Virus record (IMG/VR): IMGVR_UViG_3300034407_002452
Coordinates: 1 to 24,672 of that record
Reading direction: 5' to 3' (one strand)
DNA from: a virus
Length of the DNA stretch: 24,672 nucleotides
A program made the position numbers and the translations under genes. Below, piece by piece: positions 5,125 through 24,672 of this stretch; the first letter of the stretch is position 1; the number at the start of each line of letters is the position of its first letter. The notes under the pieces are model-generated. The model was not told the DNA's origin. It saw nothing but the letters and a program-made list of their open reading frames with translations, and searched no databases.

Positions 5125-8100
5125 ATGGCATTAGACCCTAAATCATCTACCGCTATTGCATTAGAGCAAGCAACAGTAGATTTCAAAAATAACCTACTAA
5201 CCACCAGTCGTTCTCAAAAGGAACGACTTGATGCTATTAGCTCAATGGATAAAGACAGAAGTACTAGTCCTGATGCTGTGGTTAGTGATAGTGGGTTAGA
5301 GTCATTCACAGGAGCTTCTCAGAATATTGGCATCTCATTAGGTAGTAAAGCACTACAACAAGTAGGTAACATTCTAAGTACGTTACCTACAGCACTCAAT
5401 GAGTTTGATGTAAGTCGAGGTGACTTTACTGAATCTGATTTAGCTACCTATAAGAGTATCCAAGATAAACAGAAGCTTTCTGATACTCCTGAATACACAG
5501 CAGAGGAGGAAGCATTCCTACAGCCTTGGGTTAAAGAAGTAGAACCTAAAGGTACTCAAGGCTATGTTGAATATGCTGAATCTCTTCTAGAGTCAGCAGG
5601 TAGAGAACCTGTTAAACCTACATTGGATATGGAACCTAAGAAAGAACTCTTAGACCGATTCTTTACTAATAGTGAACGTCTTGATTCATTCAATGAAGTC
5701 TTTAGTACTGGTGAACAGTATGTGAATACGTCTAAGACTCAAGAAGCTTTTGATGAGGCTGCTGATGTATACAACAACAATGTAGGTACTATCAACCAAG
5801 GTATTGAGAAGTTACAAGCTGATGACATCTCTGGTGTATCTGATTTACTTGAAGGTGCTAAGGATTTCACTGCTGAAGGTTTGTATACATTATTTACTAA
5901 CCCTCAAGCGGTAACCCAAGTAACAGTAGAGTCTATCCCTGCTATGTTAACTGCTGCCCGTAGTATTGTGGTTGGTGCAGGTGCTTTGGGTAATCAGAAC
6001 TACCAAACAGCTTTGGATGCTTATGAGAAAGAATATGGGGATATCCCTGTAGGTGATGCACGTAAGACAGCCCAAGCATATTCAGCTTTGGCCGGTATTG
6101 TAGGTACTTACTCAGATAAGTTCTTGGCTACAGGTGCAAAACTCATCCCTGACCAAGTAGCTAGTATTGCTCCTAGAGCGGCAACTGGTGCAATCACAGA
6201 AGGTATTACTGAGTCTACTGAAGAAGCTCTTACAGCATATGCAGGTGTACAGGATTCAGACAAGATTGACGGTGGTGAAGTATTCACAGCAGGTCTATTC
6301 GGCTTTGGTTCAGGCGGTGCTTTAGCAGGTGGTGTCACAGCAGTAGAAAAGGTGAACAACCTTAAGAAAGGTATCGAAACCAAACAGAATGTAACTGACA
6401 CTATCAATACCGGTACTTCAGAAGTTGATATCGATAACTCAATCATCACTGATGAGACAGTTAAAGAGTCAGTCTCTAACGCTAAATATGATAAAGCATC
6501 TGACTTGGCTAAAGTTCTACGTAATGCTACTAACCTTCAAAAACAAGAGAACACACCAGAGACAGCTAAAGAAGATGCTGCACTCTTAGCTAAGAACACT
6601 CTTAATATTGTGAACTCTCGTATAGAGAATGCTGAAGTAGTATTGGCTGATTTGGACTCTATTGCACAAGATGAGAACACTTCCCCTGAAACATTGGAAG
6701 AAGTAAATAGAACCAAGAAAGAAACCACTACTGAACTTAACCGTCTAACTAAAGTAAAAGACAGTTACACACAATCAGTAGAAAACAGCTTCACTGCTTT
6801 AGCTACTAATCCTGAAAAGATTGAAGAAATTAAGTCTCGTATCCTTGATATTGAATCAGATACTAATCTTCTTGGTTCAGATACTGAAGCATTCAGTCAA
6901 GCCCGTATTGATAAAGATGCTGCTCTATTAAACGAAGCTGCTATCTCTACAGACGTAGTATCTAGTGAAGACTTGGTTAAAGCTTCTACTAACCCTAACG
7001 TAACTCCTCAACGTGCTAATCAACTGCGTCTTACTGCTGAGTTGAATGACTCTCTTAAGAGTGCTAATGAAGTACATAACGATATCGTTAATGGCGGTAA
7101 AGGTTTCATTGGCTTACGTCAGTATCAACAACGTATCAACACAATGTTGAATATGGGGAGTACTACTCAAGCACAACGTCAGTTAGGTTTACTAGGTAAC
7201 TTTGCTAATCACTTAAACACTAAAGCACAGGCTTACCAGACTGCTTATGAGCAAGCTCAGGCTAATCCTCAAGGCGGTAGAGTAGAAGTGGAAGGCTTTG
7301 TTACTCGTGATGGTTCTCCGGCTACTGTAGACGCTAATGCAGGTAAATTAGTAAGTGATATCACACTTGAAGCTAACCTAGCTGCTGAGACTCTTCAGAA
7401 CCTACACAACCAAGTAACAGGGTTTGTTAATCCTACTTCACTTGAGGTTGCCCCTACTCAAGAGACACCAGTAGAGTCAGCTCCTGTGGCTACAGAAGAA
7501 GAGGTACAGACTGAAACGACTGATACTACTTCTGTAGAAGAAACAGCTTCTGAGGCAACTACAGAGCCTGTTACAGAAGCACAAGTTGAAACCAATGAAG
7601 TTACTGAACCAACAGTTACTGAGTCTGCTTCAGATTCAGAGCTTCTGGCTGTCCATAACCTAGACACCGATTCACGTAAAGACATCTCAACACTAGATGC
7701 TAAAGATGAATTGGAATCCCGTGGTTACTCTTTTAATGAAGAGGGTACAGTAACAACTACTCCTGAATTAACTAATCCAGTTGAGTCTATTAATACTGGT
7801 GCAGAGCCGGTATCTAAAAATAAAACCTATGAAGGTGCTGATAAACAGTTCTTATCTACTAACCAAATCAATGAAGTATTTAAGAAGGTTAGACGTGGTC
7901 TTATCTCTAAAGTAGATATCACTAACAGTACTGAAGTAAGTACTGAATTGGGTCGTGAACTTAAACCATCAGAGTCTACTCTCTTAGGTGTACTAGGTAG
8001 TTTCTCCAAAGCCATATCACAAGGCATCAGTTCTAACCTTAAGACACCGGATGAAATACTTAAACGTCGTGGTTTCCAACAACGTTTTCCTTTTGACTAC

Positions 8101-11100
8101 TTCTCACAAGAAGACGGTACTTACTCACAAGAACTACTAGATACTCTAGGTGTTACAGCTATGGAGTACTTAGAGAAGAATGCATCACAACTAAACAGTA
8201 TCAGCAATACCGGTATGGCTACATTATTGAATGTGGATTCATCCAATTTTACTCCTAACACTGAACAGTTTATTGCATTAAATAACGCGGGTTCTCCTTA
8301 CTTAGAAGTAGTTAAAGCTTTGGGTAAGGTAGCACTTAAGAACCTAGGTCTTAAGAAGCTTGATGATGCCTCACTCAATATCCAAAACAAGATTGAGATG
8401 GATTTAGGTCGAGTTATCTATCGTGCTTTAGATGAATCTAATTTAGGTATCATTGAGACTGAGACTTTCACAGGTGCTCAACTGAATGAACTAGGTGGTA
8501 ACTACACTAACCCTAATGCGGTTATCCGTAGTAGCCGTGTAAACGTAGAGGCTTTGGATACTGGTTTTGGTACAGATGCTTTGGAATTGTTTGGTAACTT
8601 GGATGGTTTCATTGAGTCACTAACAAGCAATGTAGTTGAACCAAGTAAAGCTGAGATAGGTAAACGTACTTCTAAAGTGAGTAACCAAGTAAGACGTTCA
8701 GGTGGTCAGGTAGCTTCTAAGAAGTTTGTTGAAGGTGCTAACAAAGATGCAGATATCCCTCACTACATTGATTCAAACATGAATACTGTATTTGATTCTT
8801 TAGGTGATGATGTTATTGCAGAGCTTCTTGGTGAGAAGAGTGAAGAAGGTGTTATCAAAGGGTTATTACCTAAGATTGTAGGTAAGAATAGAACAGTACG
8901 TAGAGACATAAGTACCTACAAACAGTTCCGTAACCGTATGATGGAAGAAGTAGGTCGCTTAGATACTCCTTTCTTCTACAACTACCGTTTTGGTAAACAG
9001 TTACGTTTGTCTGCTATTGGTGCTGACATCAACTACCAAACATCTAAACTACATCGTTACCTAACAGCTATGGATGCTAGTCGAATCGACCCCACTGACA
9101 ATGCCAATGAAAGCTATGTGACTTTCAAACTAGGTGTTGCTCAAGGTATGGGTATTGATATTGATAAGCAAACCTTGGCTAAGACTCTCTATGACTACGA
9201 GATGATGTTAGCTAACCCTGTTATTGATTCAGGTGTTACTGAACTAACTAAACTCCTAAGTAACCAAGAGTTCGATGCAGAGGCTATCAAAGCTGCTGTG
9301 AACGAAGGTGGTGAGAACACACACTCACTTAAATCCTTGGTTGGTATTGCAGAGCTAAGACTAGCTAACGGACAACCATTCGATACTACGGTTACGTATG
9401 AAATTGATGGTATTACTAATGGTCCATTTAATGCTCATATCCAAATGGGTTTGAATGTAGTTGACGGTAAGCTAACTGATGACAGTATTAAACGTATGGC
9501 TCAAGGTGGTTTGTTCTTGGATGGTACTGAGTCTTACACTGACTGGATTAGTAACCCAAGCAACTGGGACATCTACCAAACAACTGCATCTAATGTAGGT
9601 CAGTATGAAACTCAATTACTAGACCCAAATACTACCATTGATGGTGTTACGGCTGAGATGAAATCACAGTACCCTGTATTGAAAAAGTATGTAGGGGAAA
9701 TTGTTACTGTTGATGAAGACACGGGCGAAGTAAGAGAGGTTACATCTAAAGGGCGTAAGCTTACTAAAAACCCTGTAACAGTAACTGTATACGCTGCCGG
9801 TAAAGCATCTATCAGTAATAAGATTGCAGAATCTATTCGAGGTAATATCTTAGAGTCATTACAGGAAGCTGTAGAAACTAATGATACAGCCAAGCTTGGT
9901 GAGATTGCTCAAGACATTATGTACTTAACAGGTGATAACACTATTACCCGTAATCCTGCTAATGAGTTTGAGTTCACTAAGCCGATGATTACAGCTATCA
10001 ATAAACTAACAAGTGCTACTTTAGGTAGTATGGTTAACTTGTCTATTGAAGAGAATTTCCCTACTCAAATTCAGAACACTAAGTTAGTTACTGAGAGTAG
10101 TAACGTTATCTACTTCATGTTTAAAGCTATGTATGACAAAGCAGCAAACGAGAAGTTACTGGAACTAAGAGAGTCCGGTGAACTAAGTAGCTATGAGTAC
10201 CTAAGTACTAAACAACTGGATGAAGTTAAGCAATCTCTTCTTGAGACTATGCCAGTTTACCGTAGCTTCTATGGTGATATATCTAACGGTATCCAAACAG
10301 CCGGTTTTGCTGAAACTAACCAAATACCTGATGACATCAAAGGTTTGTTCTCACTGGGTGACACGATGCAAGGCTTCAGTCTAACTCAGTCTTACATGCC
10401 TACTTACAGTGCTCCTGCTGCTAGTACTATGGCTATGCTTAACATTGGTAATGGTGATGCAACAACCATGGCTAGGGCTACTCAGTATTCATCTACTAAC
10501 ATTGGCCTTAACGTGTTTGATGCTCGTATTGCTCCAATCAGTAATGTAGTGAATGCTTCGTTTGCTCTTAACAGAGCTGCATATGAGGCTGTAGCTGACC
10601 ACAGTATTTTAGAAACTATCAATGAACGTTACACAGAGTCGTTGAAGCAGTTCCTAGCTACTGACTTATCTGATACTGACCCAAGCGTTATTCAGCTTAA
10701 GCACTATGTTGCTGCTGCACAGAAAGACGGCTCTGTTATCAGAGGTAAGGCTACCTTCTTTGTAGACGACAACGTTGAGGTACTGACTGATGAGGAAGTA
10801 TCGAGTGCTATTACTTCTGATATGTTGGCTGACTACCTTAACAGCATTGGTTCTCAGAACAGTACTGCATTGGCTATCAACCAAGAAGCTAAGTCTATCC
10901 TGAATAAAGAACTGACATTCAACCAATTCGAAGCATTAGGTACAGGTGTTAAGTTCAATAATGGTGTTGTTTCAAAAGGTGTTGAACTAACTCCTGAAAT
11001 GCTTACTGAAGCAATTACATCTACTGAAGCTAAACTGATTCAAGCAGCTAAAACACTTCCTGAGTCAGCTAATATAGATACTTCATTGGCTAATGTAGAA

Positions 11101-14100
11101 CAATCAGTAACAGTTAAACCTGCACCAACTAAAGCAATAAACAAAGAAGCTAACCCTACTATGGTTACTTTCTTCAAAGGGCGTACTGAAGCTACCTTAA
11201 CTGATATCCGTGAGTTACTTGCTCAATTAGACCTAAGTGACGTAACACGTACCATCTACGAAAACCTACTAGATAACATTGAATCTACTGGTGGTGTGAA
11301 TGTACGTATTCTTCGCGGTACTAATAACAACAATGTAGTAACCGGCAGAGGTATGGAAAACTCAGATACATTCCGTGGTTATGCACTATCAGGTGAAAAC
11401 ACTGTCTACCTAAATGATGAAGGTAAGACAAACACGGGGATGACTGTAGAAACACTATTCCATGAGTTAGTTCATATCGCTACTTCGGATGCTATTTATA
11501 ATGGTTTAGAACAACTACGTACTGGCGAGAACTATGGTCTAACTAAAACCCAAGAGAAAGCAGTAGGTGATATTGAGAAGCTGTACAACGAAGCTGTTAA
11601 GCGTAATGACTTACCGGCAAATGCTTTAGAGAATATCTATGAGTTTGTTGCTTGGGGTCTAACCAATACTAAAGCTAAGGGTCAGCTCAATAAGAGTAAG
11701 ACTCGACTAAGAGCTTTAGCGAGTTCTATTACTCGTTTGGTTAAGACTATGTTGGGTATGAAAGAGACTGATAATAATGCTCTTATTCAGTTATTGGATA
11801 AAGTATTTACCGCGAGTACTTATGGTAACCGCGTACAAACATCTATCTCTAGTAATCCTAAAGCTACTCCTCAAAGAGCTGCTGATAGTATTAGACAACT
11901 GTCTCTATCACAGGTTTACGATAGTGTTGCTAACCGTAACACAGTAGGTATTACGCGAAGCCATGACCAACATCTACGTAACATCCTAGATGATGCTGTA
12001 GCTAATGTGATTGACCCTACTCTATTGGCTGTACCAGATGTGAACAACTCACTAGCTTCTGAGGATGCACTGTTAATTAGTCGTCTTGACCCTAGTGTAA
12101 ATGACACACTGACTATTCTTGATGGCTTGAACTTCCGTATGAGTGAGCAAGAGAATTTTGTTTACGGTATGTACAGTCACATCATCGATTCAGCACTAAA
12201 TGATTTTGGTTGGAATACACGCGAAATCAGACGTATGTATAACCATGCTGAAAAGAATATGACTTGGGAAGATTTTGTAGATGACCAAAGTGTACTGAAT
12301 ACACCGGAAGATGCTGCACAATCTAAAGTAACTGCTCAAGCTAGATACGATGCTGTATTTGGTAGTGCAAGTGTAGGTATCAATGATTACTTACGTAACT
12401 TCTTAGCATTAGCTGTAACTAATGATGCATTCCGTGAACGTTTAGAAAACCTAGATACACCTAATGCAATCAGTAAAGACATCATTGGTGACTCAGTAAG
12501 AGAGACACTGGATAACCTAATGTCAGCAATCATCAACTGGTTGAACGACTTTGCTATCACGCGTTCTCATGAAACTAACGTACTGTCTAAACTAGATACC
12601 TTAGCTAAGAACATCCGTTACAAAGAGAAAGCAGAAAAGTCTAAGTTACTTAAAGATGCTGAAAGGGTTGGCGGCTTTGCTTCAAATACCCTTAACCGTA
12701 TTAACAACTGGGGTAAAGAACGTATCAATAAGTCTTTGGATATATCTCAAAAAGCTGTAAAAGAGAGAGCTATCCTAAATGCTTCTGTACGTCTTGCAGG
12801 TGTGATTCTTAGTGAAGACCGAGCTAACACCTTTGCAATCGGTTTAGACCGTGTACAAGCACTGAGAGCTAAAGGTAGAGAAGGTTTCATCTCTGCTTTG
12901 TGGTCTGACTTGAAAGGTACTGATGCTAGTAACCAACGAGTACATCAACTATTGGCTATCAAGAATAAGATGGTAGACCAAGAGAATGTACACATTAAAC
13001 AACATACTTCACGTTTGGTTCGTGATGAGTTCCTGAATCCACTAGAAGAGAAAGACAGCCATGCAATGACTAAGGTAGTCCTTAAGTCAGACGTATCAAG
13101 TCTATTAGAGAACGGCTATGACCTAGATACTATCCAGAACCTTATTGGTGACAAGGAAGCACTAAACCAAGAAATCTCTAAACTGACTTCTAAGCTACGT
13201 CAGGATGTTGGTTACAATAACTTCAACTACTTCACTAACATGGCTAAGGCTTTAGGTCGTTACATGGCTAGAGGTGAAGTAACAGTAGATGGAATGGTAT
13301 TCAACACAGATGCAATTGTTTCTCTACACGGTACAGGTAGAACAAACCCTAATGTATCAGATGCTATTAAATCGACTGTAGACAGTCTTGTGACACTTCA
13401 AGCTTTGAAGATGACTCAATATACGGACAGACGTAGAGTTGCTCGTGTGATGGCTACTGAGGCAGCTAGAACTGATAAACGTAATGGTGCTTACTTCCTT
13501 ATGTCTCTACACAATAGAAACAAAAAGGATGCTCTTACTAAGAACTTTGTGAATGCTAACCAGAACTATCAGAAAGGTTACACAAGAGAGATTGTTGACC
13601 CATACCGTAGTATTCAGGTAGCACCTATCAGTGCTGAGTCTGAGCTTAAGTTACAAGGTTATGTTCGTATGCCAACACCTTTAAACTCAGATAAGAATGA
13701 CCCTGTTAAAGACCGTATGTTTATGTACGTATCTGAATATGGTGGTGAGGTTTCATACCTACAAAGTATCTTATCTACTGCTAATAAAGCAGCTAAGGGT
13801 TTCAGTGTTATTGACCGTTTCGCTCAAGCAGGTAACCCATTACCTAGAGCTAGACAGCCTGAAGTAATCTCACAGATTGCAGCATCTAAGAAAGCGAATG
13901 TAGATACACTGTTTACTAACAAACCTAAGCAGGTATTCAACCCGTTAGTTCCTACAACCAACCAAGCAGGTCAAGTAGTGGACTATCGTTATGTAATGGA
14001 TGAATCAATGAAGGATTCATTACTACGTAAAGATAACCGTGTTGATGAAGTTTTTGGCGCAATGGCAGCGGGTATCACACTGAAAGTGAATGGTGAAGAA

Positions 14101-15330
14101 ATTAATAACCAGTTGATTGATGCACTTCATGACCAGTACGTTGAAGATAGAGATTCAAATAACCTAGACCGTTATGTTTTGATTGAACCTAATTCAACAG
14201 ATAACCAGTTGAAGACTACTTGGAACTTGTTACCGGAAGAGGCAAAAGTGAGAGCTAAAGCTAAATTTGGTAAAGAGGTGATATATGTCAGAAATGACTT
14301 AGTGAACGTAGCCTTTGGTTACCGTAAGTGGTCAGTGACTGACTTATGGAATCCAGAAAGTGAATACCCTGCTTTGATTAAAGACATGGCTGTAAAAATG
14401 GCTAGTAGTGTTTATGGGAATAAGGTTGCTAATTACTTAGCTAGAGGAGAGAGGGGTTTACAGGAGTTTGTAAAAGAAGTGAAAGACATTGTTGTAATCA
14501 AGTCTGTACTTGTGATGATTGGTAACGCGGTATCGAACACAGTTCAACTACCAGTGCTACATGGTGTTAGTCCAGTCAAAGCTATAACAGACCAGATAAC
14601 AGCCTTTACAGCAGCTTCTGAGTACCGTAACAACTCACAAGAGATGTTCGACTTACAGACTAAAATTGATGCAGGTTTAGGAACTACTCAGATGGAAAAC
14701 CGTCTGGTTCGCTTGGCTCAAGACCAACAACGTAATCCAGTTAAACCTCTTATGGATGCGGGTATGTTACAAACCATCATCGAAGATTCAGATGGTCAAG
14801 ACAGTATCTATTCTTATAAGAACAGTCTATCTAGTAAGTTACAGAGTGTTACTTCTATGCTCCCTGAATCATTGGTTGAGGGTGCTAAACAGGTAACAAT
14901 TGCACAAGGTTCTATTGCTTATGATGCACTGAGTCAAGCAACACAGTTATCCGACTTTGCAGCAAGATACGCGTTGTATAATCATTACACTAACAATGAG
15001 GGTTATAACCAAGCAGATGCTTTGACTGCAATTACTGAGGCATTCATTAACTATGACTTACCTCCACATAAAGCAATGCAATACATGAATGATGTTGGTT
15101 TAACTTGGTTCTTCAAATACTTCATTCGTATCCAGAAAGTTATCTTGAAAGCTTTCCGTGATAGACCTGCAAGTATCCTAGCGTTACTGGTTGGGCAAAA
15201 CATGATGGATATCGAAGTTGATAACCCGATTAACTCATTCGCCCCTTCAGTGGATTTAGGTGCAAAAATTGGACTAATGGATGGTATTAGTATGGGTACT
15301 AACGCACACCCAATAGCACAATTTTACTAA
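5125..15330 (+). CDS. Giant N4-type virion RNA polymerase with metallopeptidase motif
   Basis: The product has 3,401 residues; N4 gp50 has about 3,500. The family is a T7-like single-subunit RNA polymerase packaged in the virion and ejected to transcribe early genes. Visible order: N-terminal region with glycine-rich hydrophobic stretches (about 269-290 and 390-408); acidic Thr/Glu/Pro linker (about 769-839); polymerase core. In the core a T/DxxGR-like patch ends at Arg1294 (YNYRFGKQLR) and is followed by NYQTSKLHRYL. Motif A has catalytic Asp1428 (EIDGITNG). Motif B is Arg1544-x3-Lys1548-x7-Tyr1556. Motif C has Asp1799 (NVFDARIAP, Phe where T7 has His). Arg-to-Asp spacing is 134, against 135 in N4; Lys-to-Tyr is 8, as in N4. 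HELVH (2113-2117) and a downstream Glu2173 in YEFVAWGLTN form a zinc-peptidase signature. The last 300 residues contain helices like polyvalent-protein C-termini. The stop overlaps the convergent gene. Confidence 0.85.
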   Translation: MALDPKSSTAIALEQATVDFKNNLLTTSRSQKERLDAISSMDKDRSTSPDAVVSDSGLESFTGASQNIGISLGSKALQQVGNILSTLPTALNEFDVSRGDFTESDLATYKSIQDKQKLSDTPEYTAEEEAFLQPWVKEVEPKGTQGYVEYAESLLESAGREPVKPTLDMEPKKELLDRFFTNSERLDSFNEVFSTGEQYVNTSKTQEAFDEAADVYNNNVGTINQGIEKLQADDISGVSDLLEGAKDFTAEGLYTLFTNPQAVTQVTVESIPAMLTAARSIVVGAGALGNQNYQTALDAYEKEYGDIPVGDARKTAQAYSALAGIVGTYSDKFLATGAKLIPDQVASIAPRAATGAITEGITESTEEALTAYAGVQDSDKIDGGEVFTAGLFGFGSGGALAGGVTAVEKVNNLKKGIETKQNVTDTINTGTSEVDIDNSIITDETVKESVSNAKYDKASDLAKVLRNATNLQKQENTPETAKEDAALLAKNTLNIVNSRIENAEVVLADLDSIAQDENTSPETLEEVNRTKKETTTELNRLTKVKDSYTQSVENSFTALATNPEKIEEIKSRILDIESDTNLLGSDTEAFSQARIDKDAALLNEAAISTDVVSSEDLVKASTNPNVTPQRANQLRLTAELNDSLKSANEVHNDIVNGGKGFIGLRQYQQRINTMLNMGSTTQAQRQLGLLGNFANHLNTKAQAYQTAYEQAQANPQGGRVEVEGFVTRDGSPATVDANAGKLVSDITLEANLAAETLQNLHNQVTGFVNPTSLEVAPTQETPVESAPVATEEEVQTETTDTTSVEETASEATTEPVTEAQVETNEVTEPTVTESASDSELLAVHNLDTDSRKDISTLDAKDELESRGYSFNEEGTVTTTPELTNPVESINTGAEPVSKNKTYEGADKQFLSTNQINEVFKKVRRGLISKVDITNSTEVSTELGRELKPSESTLLGVLGSFSKAISQGISSNLKTPDEILKRRGFQQRFPFDYFSQEDGTYSQELLDTLGVTAMEYLEKNASQLNSISNTGMATLLNVDSSNFTPNTEQFIALNNAGSPYLEVVKALGKVALKNLGLKKLDDASLNIQNKIEMDLGRVIYRALDESNLGIIETETFTGAQLNELGGNYTNPNAVIRSSRVNVEALDTGFGTDALELFGNLDGFIESLTSNVVEPSKAEIGKRTSKVSNQVRRSGGQVASKKFVEGANKDADIPHYIDSNMNTVFDSLGDDVIAELLGEKSEEGVIKGLLPKIVGKNRTVRRDISTYKQFRNRMMEEVGRLDTPFFYNYRFGKQLRLSAIGADINYQTSKLHRYLTAMDASRIDPTDNANESYVTFKLGVAQGMGIDIDKQTLAKTLYDYEMMLANPVIDSGVTELTKLLSNQEFDAEAIKAAVNEGGENTHSLKSLVGIAELRLANGQPFDTTVTYEIDGITNGPFNAHIQMGLNVVDGKLTDDSIKRMAQGGLFLDGTESYTDWISNPSNWDIYQTTASNVGQYETQLLDPNTTIDGVTAEMKSQYPVLKKYVGEIVTVDEDTGEVREVTSKGRKLTKNPVTVTVYAAGKASISNKIAESIRGNILESLQEAVETNDTAKLGEIAQDIMYLTGDNTITRNPANEFEFTKPMITAINKLTSATLGSMVNLSIEENFPTQIQNTKLVTESSNVIYFMFKAMYDKAANEKLLELRESGELSSYEYLSTKQLDEVKQSLLETMPVYRSFYGDISNGIQTAGFAETNQIPDDIKGLFSLGDTMQGFSLTQSYMPTYSAPAASTMAMLNIGNGDATTMARATQYSSTNIGLNVFDARIAPISNVVNASFALNRAAYEAVADHSILETINERYTESLKQFLATDLSDTDPSVIQLKHYVAAAQKDGSVIRGKATFFVDDNVEVLTDEEVSSAITSDMLADYLNSIGSQNSTALAINQEAKSILNKELTFNQFEALGTGVKFNNGVVSKGVELTPEMLTEAITSTEAKLIQAAKTLPESANIDTSLANVEQSVTVKPAPTKAINKEANPTMVTFFKGRTEATLTDIRELLAQLDLSDVTRTIYENLLDNIESTGGVNVRILRGTNNNNVVTGRGMENSDTFRGYALSGENTVYLNDEGKTNTGMTVETLFHELVHIATSDAIYNGLEQLRTGENYGLTKTQEKAVGDIEKLYNEAVKRNDLPANALENIYEFVAWGLTNTKAKGQLNKSKTRLRALASSITRLVKTMLGMKETDNNALIQLLDKVFTASTYGNRVQTSISSNPKATPQRAADSIRQLSLSQVYDSVANRNTVGITRSHDQHLRNILDDAVANVIDPTLLAVPDVNNSLASEDALLISRLDPSVNDTLTILDGLNFRMSEQENFVYGMYSHIIDSALNDFGWNTREIRRMYNHAEKNMTWEDFVDDQSVLNTPEDAAQSKVTAQARYDAVFGSASVGINDYLRNFLALAVTNDAFRERLENLDTPNAISKDIIGDSVRETLDNLMSAIINWLNDFAITRSHETNVLSKLDTLAKNIRYKEKAEKSKLLKDAERVGGFASNTLNRINNWGKERINKSLDISQKAVKERAILNASVRLAGVILSEDRANTFAIGLDRVQALRAKGREGFISALWSDLKGTDASNQRVHQLLAIKNKMVDQENVHIKQHTSRLVRDEFLNPLEEKDSHAMTKVVLKSDVSSLLENGYDLDTIQNLIGDKEALNQEISKLTSKLRQDVGYNNFNYFTNMAKALGRYMARGEVTVDGMVFNTDAIVSLHGTGRTNPNVSDAIKSTVDSLVTLQALKMTQYTDRRRVARVMATEAARTDKRNGAYFLMSLHNRNKKDALTKNFVNANQNYQKGYTREIVDPYRSIQVAPISAESELKLQGYVRMPTPLNSDKNDPVKDRMFMYVSEYGGEVSYLQSILSTANKAAKGFSVIDRFAQAGNPLPRARQPEVISQIAASKKANVDTLFTNKPKQVFNPLVPTTNQAGQVVDYRYVMDESMKDSLLRKDNRVDEVFGAMAAGITLKVNGEEINNQLIDALHDQYVEDRDSNNLDRYVLIEPNSTDNQLKTTWNLLPEEAKVRAKAKFGKEVIYVRNDLVNVAFGYRKWSVTDLWNPESEYPALIKDMAVKMASSVYGNKVANYLARGERGLQEFVKEVKDIVVIKSVLVMIGNAVSNTVQLPVLHGVSPVKAITDQITAFTAASEYRNNSQEMFDLQTKIDAGLGTTQMENRLVRLAQDQQRNPVKPLMDAGMLQTIIEDSDGQDSIYSYKNSLSSKLQSVTSMLPESLVEGAKQVTIAQGSIAYDALSQATQLSDFAARYALYNHYTNNEGYNQADALTAITEAFINYDLPPHKAMQYMNDVGLTWFFKYFIRIQKVILKAFRDRPASILALLVGQNMMDIEVDNPINSFAPSVDLGAKIGLMDGISMGTNAHPIAQFY

Positions 15331-21394: not shown

Positions 21395-21967
21395 TTAATT
21401 CTCTAGTGCTTGGGTGATTTCTAAAGCAGTCATTGTATGACTCTTCAACGTGATAGGTTTATCCCAAGAGGGTGAGTAGATGTCTAAGTTAGCAGGTAAC
21501 GGGATATCCCCCTGTAACTCAGGGTGTTCAGAGACATCCATCATGCAGTCAATTAGGTTGAAGTTAACCCACTCAGTAATCTGAGGGTTATCTGTCCACA
21601 TAAGATAGTCAGCATCGTGAATTGTCGCCACAGAGAAAACATCATTTTGTAACCCTGCATCGTAGACACGGGTTAAGAATTTATAACCTGCATCAACAGT
21701 AAGCTGACCATATGACTGACCACCAATAGCATTACCTAGAGTTCTAATAAACTCTTGGATAGCTTTAGGTGTTCTCTTGGAGTTGAGCATAGCCCGTGAA
21801 ATACCGTAACAGTAAACACGTAAACCATAGGCTACCTCTGCATAACCTTTCTCAGCTACCTCAGCTAGTTGTTCCTCTAGCCATTTGGCTGATACTTTGT
21901 ATAGTTTGTAATAGTTCTCATAGATAGCATCAGCTTCGTGTTGCTCAAATCCACAAGTCATTACCAA
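21395..21967 (-). CDS. DNA polymerase family A, C-terminal part
   Basis: This is the palm/fingers C-terminal part of the split polymerase. The open frame after the in-frame TGA (21995-21997) runs from 21994 to 21395; the coordinates given begin at TTG 21967, the first possible start (ATG at 21961 is next). Upstream in the same frame are LQYLGTAYG codons, the second half of motif B, so translation from TTG would lack them. Motif C is ATIHDADYLMW, with the His-Asp pair typical of family A. The pattern GFEQHEADAIYENYYKLYKV and the end ANLDIYSPSW match N4-like DNA polymerases. How this part is expressed is open: reinitiation would give a protein missing motif B, while a hop over TGA would give a normal one. 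It ends just before the small unknown gene. Confidence 0.75.
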   Translation of the reverse strand: MVMTCGFEQHEADAIYENYYKLYKVSAKWLEEQLAEVAEKGYAEVAYGLRVYCYGISRAMLNSKRTPKAIQEFIRTLGNAIGGQSYGQLTVDAGYKFLTRVYDAGLQNDVFSVATIHDADYLMWTDNPQITEWVNFNLIDCMMDVSEHPELQGDIPLPANLDIYSPSWDKPITLKSHTMTALEITQALEN

Positions 21968-21987
21968 CCCGTATGCAGTACCTAAAT

Positions 21988-22072
21988 ACTGAAGTCAAAG
22001 GAGGAAAGTAGGCGCTTTGCTCTTTCCTCTAACCTCCTTATGCAACTCGGCAATGTTGTTAATGACTTCAGT
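21988..22072 (-). promoter_or_regulatory. 85-nt hairpin containing in-frame TGA in polymerase motif B
   Basis: On the minus strand the contiguous bases 22008-21988 pair completely with three upstream segments: ACTGAAGTCA (22072-22063) with TGACTTCAGT (21997-21988), AAGGA (22039-22035) with TCCTT, and GGAAAG (22027-22022) with CTTTCC. Unpaired bases occur only on the 5' side. The TGA stop is the first three bases of the outer 3' arm. It is flanked on both sides by CTT, so a peptidyl-tRNA could leave one CTT and land on the next, skipping six bases. The consensus of the pairing is read from the sequence; folding energy was not calculated. Confidence 0.6.
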
Positions 22073-22120
22073 CTTTAGTTCTTGATGAGACATAGGGATA
22101 ACCCCTATGTCATCAAATGA
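21995..22120 (-). CDS. DNA polymerase family A, middle fragment ending at TGA
   Basis: After the HNH gene the polymerase frame resumes at TCA 22120 (SFDDIGVIP, then ATG 22093, MSHQELKTEV) and runs to SKAPTFLL before TGA. SKAPTF is the first half of motif B in N4/T5-type DNA polymerases, where the usual continuation is two residues, then Gln or Thr, Tyr, x, Gly, Thr. Here the bases read CTC CTT TGA CTT CAG TAT. Dropping TGA CTT gives FLLQYLGT, the expected spacing. An ATG at 22093 has AGGGG upstream but sits in a hairpin. The fragment alone cannot be a polymerase. It is listed separately because the stop is real in the sequence. Confidence 0.6.
   Translation of the reverse strand, partial: SFDDIGVIPMSHQELKTEVINNIAELHKEVRGKSKAPTFLL
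22082..22116 (-). repeat. 14-bp hairpin just after HNH insertion
   Basis: The inverted repeat pairs TTGATGA (22082-22088) with TCATCAA (22110-22116) and CATAGGG (22091-22097) with CCCTATG (22103-22109). There is a two-base bulge (22089-22090) and a 5-base loop. It begins 4 bases beyond the GTAAAT repeat that follows the HNH stop and lies within resumed polymerase coding sequence. There is no T run on either strand, so it is not a standard terminator. It may act on translation of the polymerase fragment or mark the endonuclease target. Confidence 0.7.
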
Positions 22121-22122
22121 AT

Positions 22123-22827
22123 TTACTTGTATATCCACTTGAATCCTCCACAGGTCTTAGCCCGTCCTTTTAAACAATTAGAGATGTTTCCTGAGTTAAC
22201 CCCTACGTGACTTGCAGCATCGCGCAAACTTGCATAGGTTTTTAGAGGCTTACCTGTTAAATCACATTGAACCACTTTTACTTTCTTGCTTTCGTTAGCT
22301 TGGGTATTCCGTAGTTTCTTCTGATAGGCATAAGCCAGTTGTAGTTTGGTAGTAAGTCCTAAACGAGTAGCAGCTCTGTTCACATAGTTATGTAGGGTGG
22401 TAATCCCTACCCCGTAGAGTTCTGCTAGGGAGGTTAGGGTATAACCCTCAAGTATGTTAAATAAGGCTACCTCTCCTTCATCTACAGTAAGCACTTTCTT
22501 ATATTCTTGTGAGCACAATCCTGTAGCGTAGGCATGAAGCATGTTCTCACTACGGGTTACCCATTCTAGGTTACCCGATGAGGGGTCGGTCTTATCCCCG
22601 TTCTTATGGTTAACCCATTTCTTGTTCAGAGGGTCAGGGTTAGCTACATAATAAGTGGCACAGAGAATATGAGGATAAACAGAGTACCCTTTATTCTCTT
22701 TCCACAAAGAACAGGTCAAATAACCAGTTACTTTATTCTCTACTTGAGCTAGGGGATTAGTACTCCCTTCACGGTATATCTGACCTTCACTGGATATGGA
22801 GTATGGGAAATTAGCTATCTTATGCAT
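22123..22827 (-). CDS. HNH homing endonuclease interrupting DNA polymerase
   Basis: The product has 234 residues. The HNH core spans about 50-100: YPHILCATYY with His53, WVNHKNGDKT with Asn73-His74, then GNLEWVTRSENMLHAY with Asn86, the classical phage HNH layout. A helix-turn-helix-like part follows (about 118-155, SLAELYGVGITTLHNYV). A NUMOD1-type DNA-binding repeat is at about 188-233, ending KTCGGFKWIY. The ATG overlaps the end of the upstream polymerase frame by 8 bases. The ORF, from ATG to TAA, is 705 bases, the same as the whole inserted unit. No group I intron core was seen on either side, so it looks like a free-standing homing gene. Such enzymes cut intron- or insert-less alleles in co-infecting phages and spread by repair. 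Confidence 0.9.
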   Translation of the reverse strand: MHKIANFPYSISSEGQIYREGSTNPLAQVENKVTGYLTCSLWKENKGYSVYPHILCATYYVANPDPLNKKWVNHKNGDKTDPSSGNLEWVTRSENMLHAYATGLCSQEYKKVLTVDEGEVALFNILEGYTLTSLAELYGVGITTLHNYVNRAATRLGLTTKLQLAYAYQKKLRNTQANESKKVKVVQCDLTGKPLKTYASLRDAASHVGVNSGNISNCLKGRAKTCGGFKWIYK

Positions 22828-22831
22828 TCAC
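22127..22831 (-). mobile_element. HNH insertion unit in DNA polymerase gene
   Basis: On the minus strand GTGAAT (22831-22826) and GTAAAT (22126-22121) flank the HNH ORF. Removing 705 bases between equivalent points joins ...PIEDFVN directly to SFDDIGVIPMSHQ in frame. The unit therefore carries no sequence beyond the endonuclease ORF, unlike an intron-borne gene. The 6-base similarity is short, so the exact borders are approximate by a few bases. Confidence 0.65.
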
Positions 22832-24672
22832 AAAATCCTCTATGGGTTTACGATTTCCTGCCGAGTCTACAAGGAAATCTCCCGCTTTTCCACAATAAAT
22901 GAGGCCATTTACTTCTACTTTATATACTTGAACAGTAGTTTCAGTAGTGTCTACCCTATCTATTTGCTCTTTAATTTGAGGAAGTTTCTCAGGAAAGTAA
23001 GCTAGAGCACGATAGCTATGTCCATCATAACCATGGTCATATACAGCACGCTTGTTAGGGTCTTGGGTGAGGATAGTATTAATACGTTCCTCTAGTGATG
23101 CATAATCAGCACCACCCCAAAGAAAACCTTTAGGTGCAATAAATATTGACTTGAATAGTTTAGACAGAGATGAGCCACTAGGTAAATTCTGTAAGTTGGG
23201 GTCACTACTACTCAGACGGCCTGAAACTACTCTAGCGAGGTTATAAGAGCCATGTAGGTAATGCCAACCATTACGTTCCCAATGGTGGTTCTTGAGTGCT
23301 TGGATGAACGTAGACTGCATTTTACTTGCAGCAGCTATTTCTTCCAATGCTGTGAATATCTCTTTAACACTGTCACTGACTTTGACTTTCATCTTCTTCA
23401 ATGAGCCGGAGTCAACAGAAGGGTTACCAGAAGGTGTCTTCTTAACAGGAGTTAATCCTAGTACATCAAACATCAGGATAGATAGATGAGCATTAGAGTT
23501 AGGGTTGAACTTAAGTTCTACTTCCCACTCTTCTATAGGGTTCACACGTTTAGCATTACGTTTCTCAACTTCTGCTGTACGTATTTTACCCATTGCCTCA
23601 ATGACTTCCTTACGCTTCATAAGGGACGTTCTGGCTTTGGTTATAGTATCCGTTAGGATATCGTCAACCTCTTCCATACGAGTCCATGAGAAAGGAATAC
23701 CGGCCAACTCAGTTTGAGTTAGATACCATTGCCATTTCTTCATCTTGTCATAGAGGTACTCAGAATGAATCTGACTACGGTACTTGGTATATAACCAGTA
23801 AGTACCGCGAGCATCATCCAAGTTGTATTCACAGGTCTTAGCTACAGGTACTTCCATCATGTTGGTTATTTCAGCTCTAGTAAGCTTATATTCACCACAT
23901 AAATCGGATACTAGTGTACCTAAATCTCTTGGGAATCTTTCCGGTGAGTTAGTACAAATAAAGTGTAAGAAGATAGTATCTTCATAGGTTCTGAATAGTT
24001 CACGACCATCCCCATTAAAGAGTAGATGGGTCAGTAACTTCAAGTCATAAGAACCACCATGCCAAGCAATACGTCCTTTGAACATCTCAAAGAAAATCTT
24101 TAGATAGGACATGAAATCACAGTTCTTAACATGGAATGTGTAACCGGCTTGTTCACTCACGGCAAAACTAATAGAAACCAGTTTAGCCTTGTAGAAGCGT
24201 AAATCAGTTGCTTCTACATCAGCACCAAGTAAAGGCTGTTTCATCAAATGACGAAATGCTTTCTTTACTTCAGCTTCTGTTTTAGGGGAGATTAACTTAC
24301 GTTCTACTTTAGTAACCATAGGTCTGAGGTTACGTAAGTAATAGGCTACATGTTCTACGCATTTACGGTTGTGATTCAGGTTGGCGTGAAGATATAAAGC
24401 CTTAGAAGAGAAATTAAAGTACTGAATCATCTTATCCCCAAAAGCAGGGGTTAAGATTCCAACAGTCTTAGGTAAAGTCTGCTTGTGTACAATATGTTTA
24501 TACAGCCTTGCATCACTAACAGTGATTACACAGTCTTTAGGTAGCTTTTCTAAGTTAGGGATAATACTGAGATTGGTATCATCATCTTCTAGACAGAGAA
24601 CCACTACTTTCTTACGATATTTCTCCGGTAAAAAGGTAAGTAGGTTAAGCTCAATGTTACGCTTATTGAACT
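22820..24672 (-). CDS. DNA polymerase family A, N-terminal part with exonuclease domain
   Basis: The frame is open to the right edge (22 codons before the GTG at 24604), so the true start lies outside. Counting from that GTG: exonuclease motifs are GADVEATDL (Asp129, Glu131), HGGSYDLKLL (Asp187) and YNLDDARGTYW (Asp263/Asp264). Polymerase motifs are GRLSSSDPNLQNLPS (462-476) and motif A GGADYASLEERI with Asp500 and Glu505. The protein then reads through YDGHSYRALAYFPE and ends at KPIEDFVNA, where the HNH gene begins. It thus has proofreading and half of the palm but lacks motifs B and C. With the downstream fragments, minus the HNH unit and a six-base hop, the visible polymerase would be about 854 residues, close to the N4 enzyme. 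It replicates the phage genome with the adjacent primase and SSB. Confidence 0.85.
   Translation of the reverse strand, partial: FNKRNIELNLLTFLPEKYRKKVVVLCLEDDDTNLSIIPNLEKLPKDCVITVSDARLYKHIVHKQTLPKTVGILTPAFGDKMIQYFNFSSKALYLHANLNHNRKCVEHVAYYLRNLRPMVTKVERKLISPKTEAEVKKAFRHLMKQPLLGADVEATDLRFYKAKLVSISFAVSEQAGYTFHVKNCDFMSYLKIFFEMFKGRIAWHGGSYDLKLLTHLLFNGDGRELFRTYEDTIFLHFICTNSPERFPRDLGTLVSDLCGEYKLTRAEITNMMEVPVAKTCEYNLDDARGTYWLYTKYRSQIHSEYLYDKMKKWQWYLTQTELAGIPFSWTRMEEVDDILTDTITKARTSLMKRKEVIEAMGKIRTAEVEKRNAKRVNPIEEWEVELKFNPNSNAHLSILMFDVLGLTPVKKTPSGNPSVDSGSLKKMKVKVSDSVKEIFTALEEIAAASKMQSTFIQALKNHHWERNGWHYLHGSYNLARVVSGRLSSSDPNLQNLPSGSSLSKLFKSIFIAPKGFLWGGADYASLEERINTILTQDPNKRAVYDHGYDGHSYRALAYFPEKLPQIKEQIDRVDTTETTVQVYKVEVNGLIYCGKAGDFLVDSAGNRKPIEDFVNA

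Follow-up and report, generated by a model that had tools for sequence, protein, structure and literature searches.

A predicted gluzincin domain in an N4-type virion RNA polymerase: conservation of its active site, changes of position and recurrence in non-polymerase ejection proteins

What is the signature of a zinc metallopeptidase doing within a virion RNA polymerase (vRNAP)? The question is raised by a stretch of viral DNA of 24,672 nucleotides (hereafter, the window), in which a single open reading frame (ORF; positions 5125..15330, + strand) encodes an N4 gp50-like vRNAP of 3,401 amino acids. The PHROG 2206 'virion RNA polymerase' profile covers residues 197-3372 of 3401 (E=0), which places the protein among the N4-like vRNAPs. 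Its RNA polymerase module, delineated with Pfam (residues ~1207-1851; 8743..10677, +), includes matches above the cut-off to vRNAP_dom_2 (residues 1207-1311) and N4_RNAP_helical (residues 1509-1632) and one below the cut-off to vRNAP_dom (residues 1769-1851). A candidate HDS-like motif at about residue 1824, which we take to be RNA polymerase motif C, fits the position of the HELVH motif ~300 residues downstream. The gene order in the 24.7-kb window is also N4-like and agrees with the N4 and LUZ7 records: structural genes, including members of PHROG 2050 and PHROG 2220 upstream of the vRNAP gene, are followed by the vRNAP ORF and then, on the convergent, opposite strand, by genes for RusA, SSB, Sak4, primase, exonuclease and DNA polymerase. 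The genes neighbouring the vRNAP gene gave no pointer to a peptidase substrate. The DNA polymerase is apparently split (21395-24604, -), with an HNH endonuclease ORF (22123-22827) lying between the N-terminal (22820-24604, -) and C-terminal (21395-21967, -) parts; Rfam detected no intron RNA around it.

Translation of positions 11461-11643 (+) confirmed the sequence-only reading that HELVHIATSD starts at residue 2113 and that Glu2173 lies 56 residues past His2117. The HELVH motif (residues 2113-2117; 11461..11475, +) contributes two putative zinc ligands, His2113 and His2117, and a putative general base, Glu2114, whereas Glu2173 (11641..11643, +), within EFVAWGLTN, is the putative third ligand, as judged from its conservation and its location in a predicted helix. 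HExxH is expected 0.016 times per chain of this composition and length, and shuffling of the vRNAP yielded the motif in 1.65% of 4,000 sequences, none of which had the second motif 40-110 residues downstream. Given that HExxH alone proves little in a chain of this length, conservation was tested.

Relatives were sampled through the far C-terminal C2 domain (residues 2580-3348; 12862..15168, +), so that they were not chosen by the motif. A scan of viral contigs with the piece containing the putative peptidase domain (C1) as a single protein found no relatives, making the C2 route necessary; a nucleotide search for relatives of the window found none either. With C2 as the query, tblastn matched 468 phage records, 22 of which were taken along with N4, LUZ7 and Pantoea phage G19, and IMG/VR added 152 C2 matches, some of them listed twice. 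C2 itself also matches PHROG 19273 (E 1.3e-47), whose profile of 4,846 residues has no assigned function, although the C2 of N4 has been reported to be without structural relatives (Bellis et al., 2025; PMC12633501).

The sequence-only reading had hinged on conservation of the His and Glu residues among orthologues, and they are indeed kept. His2113, Glu2114, His2117 and Glu2173 are invariant in all 25 aligned C1 domains, in which Asn2181 is conserved 23 times and Glu2109, four residues ahead of HExxH (11449..11451, +), 24 times, the latter also being present in at least 90% of the sequences in a larger alignment of 102 domains. These 102 domains are ~20% identical to that of the window, with a mean column identity of 21%, and the four site residues (102/102) are the only invariant columns; because the rows were located by HExxH, the invariance of this motif holds by construction, but that of Glu2173 does not. 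In the columns of the C1 profile, which were not located by HExxH, H-E-H...E is found in all 132 rows covering the four positions, the other rows being partial matches, frame-split pieces or a weak downstream match. Finally, we tallied the position of C1 as the distance to the C terminus in the 156 vRNAP ORFs long enough to judge. HExxH is at the standard distance in 150 of them, and the motif with the second Glu is likewise present in all 150, recognised by pattern in 144 and by eye in 6. In four vRNAPs (VBP47, phi50-12, D456 and Vibrio 1.169; L009, L010, L013 and L025), HExxH lies ~240 residues closer to C2, the region between C1 and C2 being shorter.

The six exceptions are two frame-broken ORFs (L097 and L111), three with an HExxH domain elsewhere (L064, L100 and L103, discussed below) and AD45-P4 (L024), a distant relative from a 100-kb Alteromonas phage, which has EEVVH and EEFLAKG at the site. 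Judging from this sequence, at least one vRNAP-like protein may manage without an intact site. The AD45-P4 vRNAP-like gene is in two frames, with a break between the polymerase and C1 (~6370-6390), and its depositors flag a potential frameshift.

The structure prediction and comparison with gluzincins suggested by the sequence-only reading point to a zincin arrangement. The AlphaFold2 model, computed from the C1 domain of the window and 101 relatives, has a mean pLDDT of 76, with most ten-residue blocks over residues 2028-2187 at 82-95, and is poor past its residue 190. Delimited by the model, by the VIA-align range (1-192 of the model) and by the C1 HMM, which matches residues 2041-2214 (E 2.8e-29), the domain spans residues ~2028-2219 (11206..11781, +). 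The modelled chain runs from a helix (model residues 12-27) through five strands (32-70) to the active-site helix bearing HELVH (81-106 by DSSP, that is, residues 2108-2133; 11446..11523, +) and then to the helix with Glu2173 (144-153). HExxH on one helix and the Glu on a later one is the layout of the zincin-like metallopeptidase (MPTase) domains of polyvalent proteins, and the predicted zincin fold, HExxH and third-ligand Glu together correspond to the gluzincin clan MA(E). VIA-align superposed the model on the C1 of N4 (9pnt/9pnr; Z 9.1/8.9, rmsd 4.1/4.0 Å, 177/178 residues aligned), on the catalytic domain of lethal factor (Z 8.5-8.8, ~4.0 Å, 152-157 residues; for 4dv8, Z 8.8 and 154 residues aligned), on PPEP-3 (Z 6.1, 4.2 Å, 141 residues) and on the HExxH oxygenase domain of ChlB (8s5f; Z 4.2, 4.8 Å, 130 residues). 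A Foldseek search of the PDB with the C1 model returned nothing significant (best E 0.32), so that the fold match rests on the VIA-align Z of ~9. None of the Pfam and NCBIfam metallopeptidase models matched the C1 of the window above the cut-off, the best scores for its relatives being those of DUF6782 (4e-4) and SprT-like (0.0028). The catalytic-domain fold shared with the model is that of MEROPS family M34, which includes lethal factor and PPEP and has the same HExxH...Glu ligand set as C1. M34 differs from the C1 of the window in that the two show no sequence-profile match and that C1 is phage-delivered. Overall, it is very probable that residues ~2028-2219 adopt a gluzincin fold with an intact site.

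A metallopeptidase domain in N4-type vRNAPs is already known, having been predicted in 2017 and seen in a structure in 2025. Iyer et al. (2017; PMC5512222) described this HEXXH metallopeptidase domain in the N4 vRNAP, suggested that it processes its own chain or attacks host proteins, and arrived at lethal factor independently, via profile searches. A 2021 review places the domain between the polymerase and the C-terminal domain in N4 and Cbunavirus (PMC8472413), and the cryo-EM study of Bellis et al. (2025; PMC12633501) delimits the N4 C1 as residues 2124-2375 with a conserved HExxH (9PNR, 2.8 Å). Thus, the sequence-only reading holds for the zinc-metallopeptidase fold and site, whereas the novelty that it implied for a protease role in N4 gp50 does not stand. 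In the papers considered here, no C1 activity, bound metal or site mutant is reported. The C1 of N4 gp50 resembles that of the window in its location between the polymerase and C2 and in its HELVH and NEFMAWGLAN motifs, and it is matched by the C1 profile (E 1e-78); the two are ~20% identical by structural alignment, and the stretch between the motifs is shorter in the window. Relative to the zincin-like MPTases of polyvalent proteins, which include N4-like vRNAPs and share the motif, the ligands and the functional hypotheses (Iyer et al., 2017; PMC5512222), the window shows no difference in kind and represents one more member. A further case of a polymerase and a metallopeptidase in one virion chain is the P23-45 tail tape measure protein, in which a metallopeptidase is fused to a virion polymerase (PMC10770324); the polymerase type and the tail protein are unrelated to the vRNAP of the window. 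The present analysis adds three relatives in which C1 is absent from its usual place and an HExxH domain precedes the polymerase instead, as well as the occurrence of the C1 domain in the largest ejection proteins of phiKMV-like phages.

The relocation is seen in LUZ7-like vRNAPs from IMG/VR. In two of these (L100 and L103), alignment to LUZ7 shows the polymerase running directly into C2, with no C1 in between, whereas N-terminal to the polymerase the C1 HMM matches a domain (E 3e-10 and 1e-11) that contains HEVVH or HELSH; thus, the domain has been retained but its position has not. The third (L064) also lacks C1 at the usual place and has an HELGH ahead of the polymerase that is unmatched by the C1 HMM. 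These are metagenomic contigs, but misassembly is an unlikely cause because the relocation occurs in three separate contigs. Several other vRNAPs have an additional HExxH ahead of the polymerase, and Iyer et al. (2017; PMC5512222) had previously remarked that vRNAPs contain 'one or more' of these domains. In yet another relative (L139), an insert of ~267 residues with its own HETIH (protein residues ~1288-1554) sits between the two halves of C1, after HExxH and before the second Glu. In the window, residues 2365-2472 (12217..12540, +) weakly resemble the helical half of C1 (FLALAVTN versus EFVAWGLTN), forming a second match of the C1 HMM with an E value of 0.0049 (3e-5 in relatives), the significance of which is not established. 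We do not claim a second, degenerate zincin copy here, given the hhalign probability of 4% and an all-helical model.

Among solved structures, the C1 profile also matched two proteins that are not polymerases, namely, the internal virion protein 9sfn (E 1e-22) and PhiM1 gp48 (8vb2; E 2e-8). Both have a second Glu in addition to HExxH, which reads HEAVH in 9sfn and HEAAH in PhiM1 gp48. LKD16 and other LUZ19-like records contain the 9sfn stretch unchanged in their gp37, and phiKMV has it at 98.6% identity. HExxH and the Glu are likewise kept in the largest internal virion proteins of phiNV3 (L179), LIMElight (L178) and Bolivar (L180), and the largest internal virion protein of PhiM1 (L177; 12198-15989) carries the HExxH...Glu domain; the Bolivar protein has a second motif, HEMGH, ~200 residues further. 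Searched by terms, the PhiM1 structure paper yielded no reference to a zinc site or a peptidase in gp48. Like the vRNAP of the window, phiKMV/LUZ19 gp37 and PhiM1 gp48 are ejected virion proteins with the same profile domain, HExxH and Glu. Unlike it, they are not polymerases, and several gp37 records are annotated with an endolysin or lytic transglycosylase domain. Lysozyme-like domains fused to a zincin-like MPTase domain were mentioned by Iyer et al. (2017; PMC5512222), so that the occurrence in these ejection proteins may have been noticed before.

Given that the domain changes its place and is present in ejection proteins other than polymerases, a job in genome entry is favoured over freeing of the polymerase. 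Specifically, we propose that C1 is a zinc gluzincin-type peptidase acting in trans during genome entry, a statement that, taken as a whole, we consider an even bet. Carried on the ejected polymerase, the domain would bind Zn2+ through His2113, His2117 and Glu2173, with Glu2114 activating water. The peptidase would be silent in the capsid and become active after threading through the tail and refolding in the cell, where its target would be a host-envelope, host-cytoplasmic or ejectosome protein, release of the polymerase not being its main task.

The proposal has to be weighed against triggered self-processing, whereby the vRNAP chain would be cut after ejection, for instance, in the linkers flanking the polymerase, releasing the latter from a membrane anchor or from an inhibitory C-terminal domain. 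This possibility was put forward by Iyer et al. (2017; PMC5512222) by analogy to the processed DdrB of P1, and the N4 vRNAP has both a flexible linker of 23 residues between the polymerase and C1 and a C-terminal domain that represses transcription (PMC12633501). Furthermore, cutting in cis would be compatible with a domain able to operate both N-terminal and C-terminal to the polymerase. However, the N4 vRNAP is packaged unprocessed, according to work cited by Iyer et al. (2017; PMC5512222), recombinant full-length gp50 was purified without evidence of degradation (Bellis et al., 2025; PMC12633501), and the domain resides also in phiKMV-type ejection proteins, which are not polymerases. These three observations weaken the suggestion of the sequence-only reading that the peptidase could free the polymerase, and it is because of them that action in trans is favoured. 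The case for trans action thus draws mainly on negative evidence on self-cleavage, and the recombinant protein may lack the trigger. On balance, we regard self-processing as doubtful, although by no means far-fetched.

The remaining alternatives dispense with proteolysis. If the zinc site were purely structural, holding together a metal-folded domain needed for encapsidation, this would accord with the reported requirement for the C-terminal region of the N4 vRNAP in encapsidation (PMC5512222) and with the contact between C1 and the polymerase in a tight complex (Bellis et al., 2025; PMC12633501). Such a role is nevertheless improbable: Glu2114, which would serve as general base without binding the metal, shows the same invariance as the ligands, and a domain that can lie before or after the polymerase ill suits a fixed structural contact. 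It is also very unlikely that C1 uses its HExxH metal site for chemistry other than proteolysis, as do the zincin-like 2-oxoglutarate-dependent oxygenases. Although Bellis et al. (2025; PMC12633501) cite this class beside zincins for C1, and the ChlB domain 8s5f appears in the VIA-align fold list, its Z of 4.2 is well under those of lethal factor (8.8) and PPEP-3 (6.1), and the Glu on the second helix, typical of gluzincins, is invariant. As for a chance motif, the odds of one HExxH in a protein of this composition and length (3,401 residues) are ~1.6%, but conservation in 150 ORFs, the second motif and the fold refute this explanation, to which we attach a negligible probability.

Returning to a peptidase that acts in trans, each virion ejects ~4 copies of the protein, and the near-universal retention of its active site indicates a genuine function early in infection; the relocation of the domain together with its phiKMV-type occurrence offers a simple way to separate 'frees polymerase' from 'acts on host'. 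More generally, and tentatively, the gluzincin might serve short-tailed phages as a common entry enzyme that does not depend on the polymerase. Lodged in whichever giant protein is ejected, be it a phiKMV-type gp37 or an N4-type vRNAP (before or after the polymerase), it would cleave a protein of the host envelope or cytoplasm within minutes of the onset of infection.
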